Below, piece after piece: positions 20,877 through 37,355 of a DNA stretch of 64,000 nucleotides. Under the pieces are notes generated by a model. That model saw nothing but the letters and a program-made list of their open reading frames with translations. It did no database searches and had not been told where the DNA came from. The position numbers were made by a program, and so were the translations under genes. This DNA is from Mollicutes bacterium (GTDB lineage Bacteria > Bacillota_I > Bacilli_A > Izemoplasmatales > Izemoplasmataceae), in contig PUOX01000024.1 of NCBI GenBank assembly GCA_003552925.1, forward strand, positions 1 to 64,000, read 5' to 3'. Each line of letters begins with the position of its first letter. Position 1 is the first letter of the stretch.

Positions 20877-21725
20877 TCAAAGTATTTTTGTCATGTGTGT
20901 GTAATATTCTTCCTTCAACGCTTCACGAATCTTGTTCAACACATCCCGTTCTTTGTTGATGACGAAAAACGTAGGACCGGAGCCGCTCATCAAAAACCCT
21001 TTGGCCCCTATCTCGGACAGCTTGTCATGCAACCCCTTCACCTCGGGAAACAAAGCGTAAGTATAAGGGGAGAGTGCATTGTGCAAGCTACGCACCAGTA
21101 ACTCGCAGTTCCGATTGTAGATGGCGTTTGTCATCGAAGTAATTTTTACATTGCGAATTTCTTTCATATCCAACGCTTCATAGACTTGTTTTGTGCTTAC
21201 TTTTATACCTGGAGAAACCAAAAGCAGAGGAACGTTCAACTTTTGTTTCAAGAAAAACAGTTTTTCGCCTTTTCCCCGTGCGATACAGAGTTTGTTGTAG
21301 ATGCAAAAAGGAACATCCGCGCCAAAAGATTCGCCAATTTCTGAGAGTTTTTCCTTGGTCAAACGAAGATGGAAAAGGTCATTGATGCCCCGCAAGGCGG
21401 CAGCGCAGTCTGCGCTTCCGCCCCCTAAGCCGGCCGCTATGGGGATGTTTTTTTGGATATGAATCTCCATTCCGTGCTTGAGTTTGTAGTTTTCCATCAT
21501 GTGCTTGGCGGCTTTGAAAACGATGTTGTCTTCAATGCTCTCTGTAATCGTCTTTGAAGTCGTAAGCCGAAGTTCATGATCCTTGCGCTTTTTGATTGTT
21601 ACGACGTCATGCATTGCAATAGGTGCCATGACCATTTCCAAATCATGGTACTGATCCGGGCGCTTCCCCAAAACATCCAGAAACAGATTCACCTTGGCAT
21701 ACGCAATTTCTTTGACCAATGCCAT
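20877..21725 (-). CDS. ispE: 4-diphosphocytidyl-2-C-methyl-D-erythritol kinase
   Basis: AYAKVNLFLDVLGKRPDQYHDLEMVM, PIAAGLGGGSADCAAALRG, MSGSGPTFF. Confidence 0.95.
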   Translation of the reverse strand: MALVKEIAYAKVNLFLDVLGKRPDQYHDLEMVMAPIAMHDVVTIKKRKDHELRLTTSKTITESIEDNIVFKAAKHMMENYKLKHGMEIHIQKNIPIAAGLGGGSADCAAALRGINDLFHLRLTKEKLSEIGESFGADVPFCIYNKLCIARGKGEKLFFLKQKLNVPLLLVSPGIKVSTKQVYEALDMKEIRNVKITSMTNAIYNRNCELLVRSLHNALSPYTYALFPEVKGLHDKLSEIGAKGFLMSGSGPTFFVINKERDVLNKIREALKEEYYTHMTKIL

Positions 21726-21740: not shown

Positions 21741-21756
21741 TGTTCCACGTGGAACA
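21741..21756. other. parS-like site 1
   Basis: TGTTCCACGTGGAACA, perfect 16-bp palindrome; close to Bacillus parS consensus TGTTNCACGTGAAACA. Confidence 0.85.
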
Positions 21757-21848
21757 TTATTTCTTCTCTAAAAATATTTATGTTTAACGTGTCTTAATGC
21801 CTCATATAAACCTTTTTGTTTAAATACCCTTTTATGTAAAACCGTCAA

Positions 21849-21864
21849 TGTTTCACGTGGAACT
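21849..21864. other. parS-like site 2 (overlaps rsmA stop codon)
   Basis: TGTTTCACGTGGAACT. Confidence 0.8.
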
Positions 21865-22723
21865 ATAAGTATTTTTCTATGAATGTTTTTCCTAACTCGA
21901 TCAATTTCTTGGAAGCAATTTCCTCCGCCCTGATTTGTGTTCGATACCCGTGTTCTTGCAAGAACACTTGGAGCTCACTTTTTTCGATACCATACGCGAC
22001 ATGGAGATTGTTGGTTAGCGTCTTTCTTTTTTGTTTGAAACAAGCTTTGAAGAAACGAAGCAACTCCGGTGTTTCATGTGAAACATATTGATTGGGCTTT
22101 ACATCCAACGTTATGACGCCGCTATCTACTTTCGGGCGAGGGATGAACACAGTGTTTGGGACTGAAAACTCGAAAGTGGGCGTCGTCAAATAATGCATAA
22201 TTACGCTCAAAGCGTTGTAATCCTTTGTGCTTTTCGCAGCGGTAAGCCGCTTGGCAACTTCAAGTTGAACCATCAGCACATAGCGGTCAACCAAGCGAGA
22301 TTCTTCCAGCGCCTTCATAATGAACGGCGTTGTAATGTAATAGGGGAGATTCGCGACGACAACGACTTTTTCCACTTTACCATGGCGTTCTTTAATATCC
22401 TCATCGATGTCCCTTTTCAGTATGTCTCCCGCAATCAGTGTGAAGTTTTCGCGTTCTTTAAACATATCTTCCAATACTTCGACCAGTGATTCGTCAATTT
22501 CATAGGCCAATACATGAGCGGCCCGATTCAATAGATATTGCGTCAAGCTTCCTAAGCCCGGGCCGACTTCGAGTACTAAGGTTTCTTTGTCGATTTTTGC
22601 CGTGTTGACGATTTTTTGCAAGATTTTGTCGTCGATCAAATAGTTTTGCCCGAACCGCTTGCGCGCTTGCAAGTTTTGATTGTTTATGAGGGCGCGAACC
22701 TTTTTCGATGTGGAAACATCCAT
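21863..22723 (-). CDS. rsmA: 16S rRNA dimethyladenosine transferase
   Basis: KRFGQNYLIDDKILQKIV, LEVGPGLGSLTQYLL, VVANLPYYITTPFI; start ATG 22723 behind AGGTGATAGC. Confidence 0.95.
   Translation of the reverse strand: MDVSTSKKVRALINNQNLQARKRFGQNYLIDDKILQKIVNTAKIDKETLVLEVGPGLGSLTQYLLNRAAHVLAYEIDESLVEVLEDMFKERENFTLIAGDILKRDIDEDIKERHGKVEKVVVVANLPYYITTPFIMKALEESRLVDRYVLMVQLEVAKRLTAAKSTKDYNALSVIMHYLTTPTFEFSVPNTVFIPRPKVDSGVITLDVKPNQYVSHETPELLRFFKACFKQKRKTLTNNLHVAYGIEKSELQVFLQEHGYRTQIRAEEIASKKLIELGKTFIEKYL
22070..22085. other. parS-like site 3 (inside rsmA coding sequence)
   Basis: TGTTTCATGTGAAACA, perfect palindrome. Confidence 0.8.
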
Positions 22724-22727
22724 GCTA

Positions 22728-23645
22728 TCACCTTTGGCTGTCCTGATTCTGAAAATACTTCTTGCTCTTTTGGTTGATGATGATGCGAAGCGCTTGAGGA
22801 AGAATACGGACCTCAATGGGGCCCTTCGCACCACTTTCTCCGTCTATGGTCCATCGATAGGATGTGTCGACTTCGACACTGGCGTGTTCGACGACGTGCC
22901 TTTTTACGCCGGGAATGACTTTCGGGTCGAACAAGAACGATAGGACAAACATTATATTGTTCAAGAAAGGAATGTATCGATAAAGCACCACATCCAGTTT
23001 CCCATCATCCAATATAGGACGGTTGATGACCGGAAAACTGGCGACACGTTTGGAATTGACCAGCAACACCAAAGAGAAGCGCCCGTTATGGTTTTCGTCC
23101 GGCAAGCGTACTATCATGGGGATTTTCTTAATCCGAAAAAACTGTTTGACGCCGGCAAGAACATAGGCCAAATACCCTAAATTGTTTTTCCATGTTTCGG
23201 GTGTGGAGTAACTGATGTCTACGTAATTGCCGAGTGCGGCCACGTAGGAGAAATGCCCTTGCGTCGATGCTACGACGTCCATGGAAACTTCAAGCTTTTC
23301 TTGGATAATCTGCAGCGCTTTTTTGATGTTTTTCGGAATGCCGAGCGTTTTGGCCAAATCGCAGGAAGTTCCGGTTGGGATGTATGCAACAAGGGGCCTG
23401 TGCGAAGTCTTGAACATTCCGTTCAGACATTCGTTCATCGTCCCATCGCCGCCGGCTACCAAAAGCATGTCCACTTTTTGAAGGCAAGCTTCCTCGCTTA
23501 GAGAAATCGCATGTTGCGGATAATCCGAGCGTTTGACATCGTATTCATACTCCATGCTTTCAAGAGTGTTTGTGACATCGCGAATATGGGATTCGAATGT
23601 CCGCTTCCCGCTCACGGGGTTGTAGATGACGATGCATTTCGGCAT
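22728..23645 (-). CDS. Diacylglycerol/lipid kinase (DagK/YegS family)
   Basis: IYNPVSGKR, LLVAGGDGTMNECLNG, PTGTSCDLAKTLGIP. Confidence 0.9.
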   Translation of the reverse strand: MPKCIVIYNPVSGKRTFESHIRDVTNTLESMEYEYDVKRSDYPQHAISLSEEACLQKVDMLLVAGGDGTMNECLNGMFKTSHRPLVAYIPTGTSCDLAKTLGIPKNIKKALQIIQEKLEVSMDVVASTQGHFSYVAALGNYVDISYSTPETWKNNLGYLAYVLAGVKQFFRIKKIPMIVRLPDENHNGRFSLVLLVNSKRVASFPVINRPILDDGKLDVVLYRYIPFLNNIMFVLSFLFDPKVIPGVKRHVVEHASVEVDTSYRWTIDGESGAKGPIEVRILPQALRIIINQKSKKYFQNQDSQR

Positions 23646-28587: not shown

Positions 28588-28803
28588 AAAAAAACTCGTC
28601 CCTTGAAGGGACGAGTCTTATACCCGTGTTGCCACCCCGGTTGATGCATCACGCATCCACTCTGTCGTGTTAACGGCACGAAACCGGGAAGTTTTGCTTC
28701 CGCTCCAAGGTAGATTTCGTCTTCCAACCTGCCGGTTCGCAGCGCCACCGGCTCTCTTTGGAGGTTTTATCGAAGACTACTTAGCCTTTTCGTCGCTTTT
28801 TGA
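28588..28803 (-). promoter_or_regulatory. T-box riboswitch (Ser) upstream of serS
   Basis: Minus strand CCGGGGTGGCAACACGGGT T-box; ACTCGTCCCTTCAAGGGACGAGTTTTTTT terminator; GAAA-UCU-ACC specifier loop. Confidence 0.9.
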
Positions 28804-35966: not shown

Positions 35967-37355
35967 TTACTTTTCTCCACATTTATGCTTTAGTTTTTCG
36001 ACATCGACATGAACATTTTTGTCGAGTTGAAGATCGTTGCCGATTTTTTCGACGGAATGCATCACGGTGGAATGGTCACGATTGCTGAAGTAAGAGCCGA
36101 TTCGCTTATAGGGAAGATCGAACATTTCTTTGATTAAGTACATGGCGATTTGCCTGGGGTACAAATATTGGCGGGCGCGTTTTTTGGAAACGAGGTCGCT
36201 TGTGGAGATGTTGTAGTAGTCGCTGACGACGCTTAAAACATTGCGGACTTTGTCGCGGACAAAGTCTTGGTTGTTCCGTTTGGGTCGCACAAGATTCTCC
36301 AAGGCGATTTCTGCGTTTTTGATGGTAAAATCGTAATCGAACGCGGTACAGTAGAAAAGGACACGCTTCAACGCGCCTTCAAGTTCACGGACGTTGTTGT
36401 CGAAGACGCTGGCGATGTATTCGATCACTTTGGCGGGCATGAGGTTGGTTTCGCTTGTTTCCGCCATGAGTTTCTTTTCGAGGATTTTGATGCGGTGGTC
36501 CAAATCGGGCCGGTTGATGTCGACGGTGACCCCCCAAGAAAAACGCGACGTCAGGCGTGACATGATATCGCGTAAATCGGACGCTTTGCGGTCGGAAGTA
36601 ATTACGATTTGTTTTTGTTCGTTATGAAGTTGTTCGAAAAGCTTGAAAAATTCTTCTTGCGATTTTTCCTTTTTGGCCAAAAACTGAATGTCGTCAACCA
36701 AAAGGACGTCCACGTTTCGGTACATGGAGTTGAATTCGTTGTATTTTTTCTTGCTTGAATAGCGCACGTAGTCTTCCACGAACTGGTCGGCTTTCACATA
36801 CAAAACCCGCTTGTTGATGTCGCCTTCAAGGATGTAGTTGCCGACGCATTGCATCAAATGTGTTTTTCCTAGGCCGACATCGCCGAAAATGTAAAGAGGG
36901 TTGGCGACGATGCCCGGCTGGTCGGCGACTTTGATGGAGGAAGTGTAGGCCAAACGGTTGGAATTGCCAACAACAAAATTGCTGAACGTATAAGAGGGGT
37001 TTAGGTTCGAACGGACATACCGCTCTTTTTGTTCAACGTTTTCGGGCGTACGGATGTCATAGCTTTTTGCATTGTTCAGTTCTTCCTCTGCCTGCTCTTT
37101 GGTGATGATCCGATACTCGTAGCGCTCATCGACATAGTTTTCGAGCAAGCGATTCATGCGTTGCAAATAAAGCAGCTCGATCCGCCGCTTGATAAAATCG
37201 TTTTCTACGAGGAGGTAAATGAAGTTGTTTTTTACTTTGAAAACCGAGTCGACTGAATTGAATATCTCCTCGTAGGTGTTGTCTTCAAGCTGCATCTCCA
37301 GCTGCCCTTTGACTTCCTGCCATATATTCATATGTTCATGAACATGTTCTTGCAT
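35967..37355 (-). CDS. dnaA: Chromosomal replication initiator DnaA
   Basis: NPLYIFGDVGLGKTHLMQ, VDDIQFL, SYFSNRDHSTVMHSVEKI. Confidence 0.98.
   Translation of the reverse strand: MQEHVHEHMNIWQEVKGQLEMQLEDNTYEEIFNSVDSVFKVKNNFIYLLVENDFIKRRIELLYLQRMNRLLENYVDERYEYRIITKEQAEEELNNAKSYDIRTPENVEQKERYVRSNLNPSYTFSNFVVGNSNRLAYTSSIKVADQPGIVANPLYIFGDVGLGKTHLMQCVGNYILEGDINKRVLYVKADQFVEDYVRYSSKKKYNEFNSMYRNVDVLLVDDIQFLAKKEKSQEEFFKLFEQLHNEQKQIVITSDRKASDLRDIMSRLTSRFSWGVTVDINRPDLDHRIKILEKKLMAETSETNLMPAKVIEYIASVFDNNVRELEGALKRVLFYCTAFDYDFTIKNAEIALENLVRPKRNNQDFVRDKVRNVLSVVSDYYNISTSDLVSKKRARQYLYPRQIAMYLIKEMFDLPYKRIGSYFSNRDHSTVMHSVEKIGNDLQLDKNVHVDVEKLKHKCGEK

Follow-up and report, generated by a model that had tools for sequence, protein, structure and literature searches.

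A parS-like site cluster near the presumed origin of an Izemoplasma-like bacterium: a probable chromosomal ParABS centromere that seems to act without SMC

ParB bound to its parS sites is usually viewed as having two jobs, serving ParA as a handle and SMC as a loading dock. The known systems nearest to the one studied here are Soj-Spo0J-parS of Bacillus subtilis, with its 16-bp parS consensus TGTTNCACGTGAAACA (PMC7022226), and the SMC-only segregation of Mollicutes such as JCVI-Syn3A, in which SMC is kept while ParABS and parS are absent (PMC13142093). We analysed a window of 64,000 nt (contig PUOX01000024.1, positions 1 to 64,000) from an uncultured Izemoplasma-like bacterium, and found that the system of this bacterium shares with B. 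subtilis the 16-bp consensus, the placement of the sites near the origin, a parAB pair within an mnmG-rsmG block, and a ParB carrying the motifs GERR and ENLQR as well as R173/G201. Unlike in B. subtilis, SMC was not found in the order, only three sites were found here, the block contains genes for two membrane proteins instead of a noc gene, and in contiguous relatives it lies about 100 kb from dnaA. Like JCVI-Syn3A, this is a lineage from the Mollicutes/Firmicutes neighbourhood using one of the two usual systems, but the choice is reversed, with ParABS and parS retained in the absence of SMC. The parS sites themselves are of a known kind, and the unusual part seems to be the order-wide combination of ParABS with missing SMC (SMC was searched in all three families of the order, ParABS in the first family only). 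Among open-licence papers we found none on SMC in Izemoplasma or on this arrangement; other bacteria with ParABS and no SMC may already be known.

The three sites, none of them assigned to a strand, lie beside and within rsmA. Site 1 (21741-21756, TGTTCCACGTGGAACA) is a perfect palindrome located between rsmA and ispE, a short way 5' of the ispE start, site 2 (21849-21864, TGTTTCACGTGGAACT) shares two bases with the rsmA stop codon, and site 3 (22070-22085, TGTTTCATGTGAAACA) covers codons 213-218 of rsmA. The sequences and positions given in the first-pass annotation are exact, including the overlap with the stop codon and the location of the third site in coding sequence. It had also described both outer sites as perfect palindromes, which is correct for site 1 but not for site 3, because the central pair of the latter is T/G and not complementary, the minus strand of the site reading TGTTTCACATGAAACA. 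The CAYGTG centre of site 3 is seen again in relatives. Scanning the window with up to two mismatches yielded six strand matches (0.8 expected), a number attained in none of 100 shuffles. A scan of the whole host assembly (1.28 Mb in 76 contigs, 73% complete), as had been proposed, found no site with zero or one mismatch beyond these three, while sites with two mismatches are scattered and no more frequent than those of a reversed-pattern control. Given its incompleteness, the assembly may fail to show further parS sites or a second ParB. On sequence grounds, the three elements are almost certainly ParB docking sites.

The genes around the cluster are all encoded on the minus strand: rsmA/ksgA (21866..22723; TIGR00755, E 8.7e-77), which hosts site 3; ispE (20877..21725; TIGR00154, E 1.3e-70), downstream of sites 1 and 2; and a YegS/BmrU-type lipid kinase gene, here called dagK (22728..23645; TIGR00147). 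Together with rpmH, dnaA (35967..37355, minus strand; TIGR00362, E 2.5e-142) brackets the presumed origin, with DnaA-box-like words upstream of dnaA in the dnaA/rpmH gap (approximately 37.4-37.9 kb). The distance of about 15.5 kb to oriC, as claimed initially, therefore holds as a distance to dnaA/rpmH, where the origin is presumed to be. Elsewhere in the window, a T-box leader is located directly 5' of serS (28604-28802, minus strand; Rfam RF00230, 119.5 bits).

Comparison with relatives shows that the sites are conserved. One to three parS-like sites occur in 44 of the 49 genomes of the family, whereas any control match was found in just 9 of 49. The pta-dagK-rsmA-ispE stretch, which includes the rsmA-ispE junction that the first-pass annotation had suggested aligning, holds a site in 18 family genomes from seven genera, at 12-16 kb from dnaA in those genomes that have both on one contig. 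G004 and members of genera g2, g11 and g15 also have a site at the intergenic position of site 1, and G004 carries a site just after rsmA, comparable to site 2. A further set (genera g3, g12, g13 and g15) has a site beside mnmE; genera g8, g10 and g17 have their sites elsewhere, about 120-180 kb from dnaA as judged from two single-contig genomes. The codon position of site 3 is shared by the host (VSHET) and its relatives G002 (VSRET) and G005 (VPRET); the five-codon window over this site is the most conserved of 277 in rsmA in the comparison with G002, and with G005 all six third positions match, against an rsmA mean of 0.32. Similarly, ten genomes of five genera carry GGTT(T/A)CACGTG(T/G)AACA in frame at one codon position of dagK, with residue changes (F/Y, C/W) confined to the degenerate parS positions; the dagK of the host is without this in-frame site. 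In these alignments, the sites inside rsmA and dagK show constraint on the DNA itself, with changes in the encoded amino acids. In other Firmicutes, 76 of 80 named loci showed no parS site in the surroundings of rsmA, the exceptions being two izemoplasma records (L104 and L105, one site each), Bacillus pumilus (one site about 3 kb from rsmA) and Periweissella (a site with one mismatch). An rsmA-adjacent parS is thus a trait of the lineage. A relaxed parS pattern, applied to 12 genomes, gave too much noise to be of use.

The partners of the sites are encoded outside the window, as had been predicted from the lack of parAB in it. On contig C44 of the host assembly, parB (92335-93216) follows mnmG, rsmG, two membrane protein genes and parA in this order. 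Its product has PF02195 and HTH_ParB domains and intact GERR and ENLQR motifs, which are the CTP motifs of ParB (PMC8494293). Residues 173 and 201 set the choice between parS and Noc-site binding (PMC7383237); here they are R173 and G201, i.e. the parS type, which is found in nearly all ParBs of the family. Directly upstream, an intact ParA is encoded (KGGVGKTT, PF13614). The presence of both genes supports the proposed ParB centromere with parAB elsewhere. The pair is not displaced from the usual rsmG-parA-parB locus, as had been assumed, but still resides in the mnmG-rsmG block. This block is shared across the family, and in the contiguous relatives G017, G045, G046 and G048 it is found at about 87-103 kb from dnaA.

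Several variants of these proteins and of their surroundings are worth recording. The two adjacent membrane proteins between rsmG and parA (L007:10089-12502 on C44, about 400 aa each) have no Pfam or NCBIfam match, and their position, where Bacillus has noc, is conserved across the family. In G002 and G005, ParB (L050, L051) shows ETLQNK in place of ENLQR, with parA and parS retained; the ParB of G034 (L057) has an alanine at position 201, where a glycine is otherwise constant. Within what looks like phage DNA on contig C73, the host additionally encodes a protein that joins a ParB-like domain to a DNA methyltransferase (L008:4486-5775).

The first-pass annotation had regarded the cluster as a loading site for SMC, and our searches of the genome and its relatives do not support this: no credible bacterial SMC was found. 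The bacterial SMC profile TIGR02168, which is positive in control Firmicutes genomes, finds no match in 48 of the 49 family genomes and, for the order as a whole, in 89 of 90, including single-contig and closed ones; since the host assembly is 73% complete, the statement on absence rests on the relatives. The usual place of smc is before ftsY, and in the closed genome G046 an acetyltransferase gene and topA stand there instead, in front of ftsY-ylxM-ffh; no SMC-like ORF occurs in the 1.18 of its 1.88 Mb that were read. The single match is a full-length smc in G004, on a 4.6-kb smc-ftsY contig (C29) whose third-position GC of 0.43 differs from that of gyrB/gyrA in the same genome (0.61-0.63), so that this contig is probably a foreign contaminant. 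A weak SMC match in the host turned out to be an ABC transporter. One could still suppose that the sites load condensin as in Bacillus, namely an SMC diverged beyond detection or a MksB-type complex. Recruitment of SMC is usual for ParB-parS (PMC7333895), G004 does show a full-length smc, and the order-wide search consisted of the SMC profile TIGR02168. In view of the profile result, the gene order in G046 and the composition of the G004 contig, we nevertheless consider condensin loading unlikely, and judge that the ParABS centromere probably works without SMC.

Two further readings dispense with a chromosomal parS altogether. The palindromes might be operators of a transcription factor controlling ispE and rsmA, and sites 1 and 2 do lie in the gap directly 5' of ispE; but in relatives the motif sits within dagK, within rsmA or beside mnmE, i.e. 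at no fixed promoter position, and it is the ParB consensus, present in just one to three copies per genome, which makes regulation of these genes very improbable. That the sites are bound by Noc, or cluster by chance, can be practically dismissed. The top NCBIfam score of the ParB is indeed to the Noc model, but it stays under the cut-off of that model, and the protein carries the parS pair R173/G201, not the Q/R of Noc. Likewise, the sites fit the parS consensus, as originally claimed, and not the Noc site, while chance is hard to reconcile with a cluster that exceeds all shuffles and is conserved. Nucleoid occlusion by a Noc-NBS system, for which we looked for a Noc site together with Q173/K179/K184/R201, was not found here.

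Taken together, we consider it likely that the sites form a parS centromere near the origin, belonging to a chromosomal ParABS system that acts without SMC. In sequence the cluster looks like an ordinary parS centromere, and very probably it is one in function as well. We infer that a dimer of the ParB encoded on C44 would bind the three sites, close as a CTP clamp and spread onto the adjacent DNA, and that ParA would then move the ParB-coated origin region into the daughter cells. With bacterial SMC missing from the order, this complex would probably act via ParA, and via bridging by ParB itself, rather than by loading SMC.

A relative from the same genus as the host, G001, shows a coupled decay of the system. 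In this genome (96% complete) no parS was found within one mismatch, no parA lies between the membrane gene and parB at the locus, and no SMC was detected. In its ParB, GERR has become GEVR and ENLQR has become EILKRD, with the DNA-reading helix intact. As read from its sequence, parA at the locus, the CTP motifs of ParB and all parS sites appear to be gone together, and this joint loss suggests that the three are maintained only as a set. We lean towards a scenario in which Izemoplasmatales lost SMC ancestrally and came to rely on ParABS for segregation, the freed ParB/parS then decaying in single lineages such as G001. Retention of ParA, ParB and parS in an order with no detectable SMC would be a natural experiment in which the handle and the loading-dock role of parS-bound ParB come apart.
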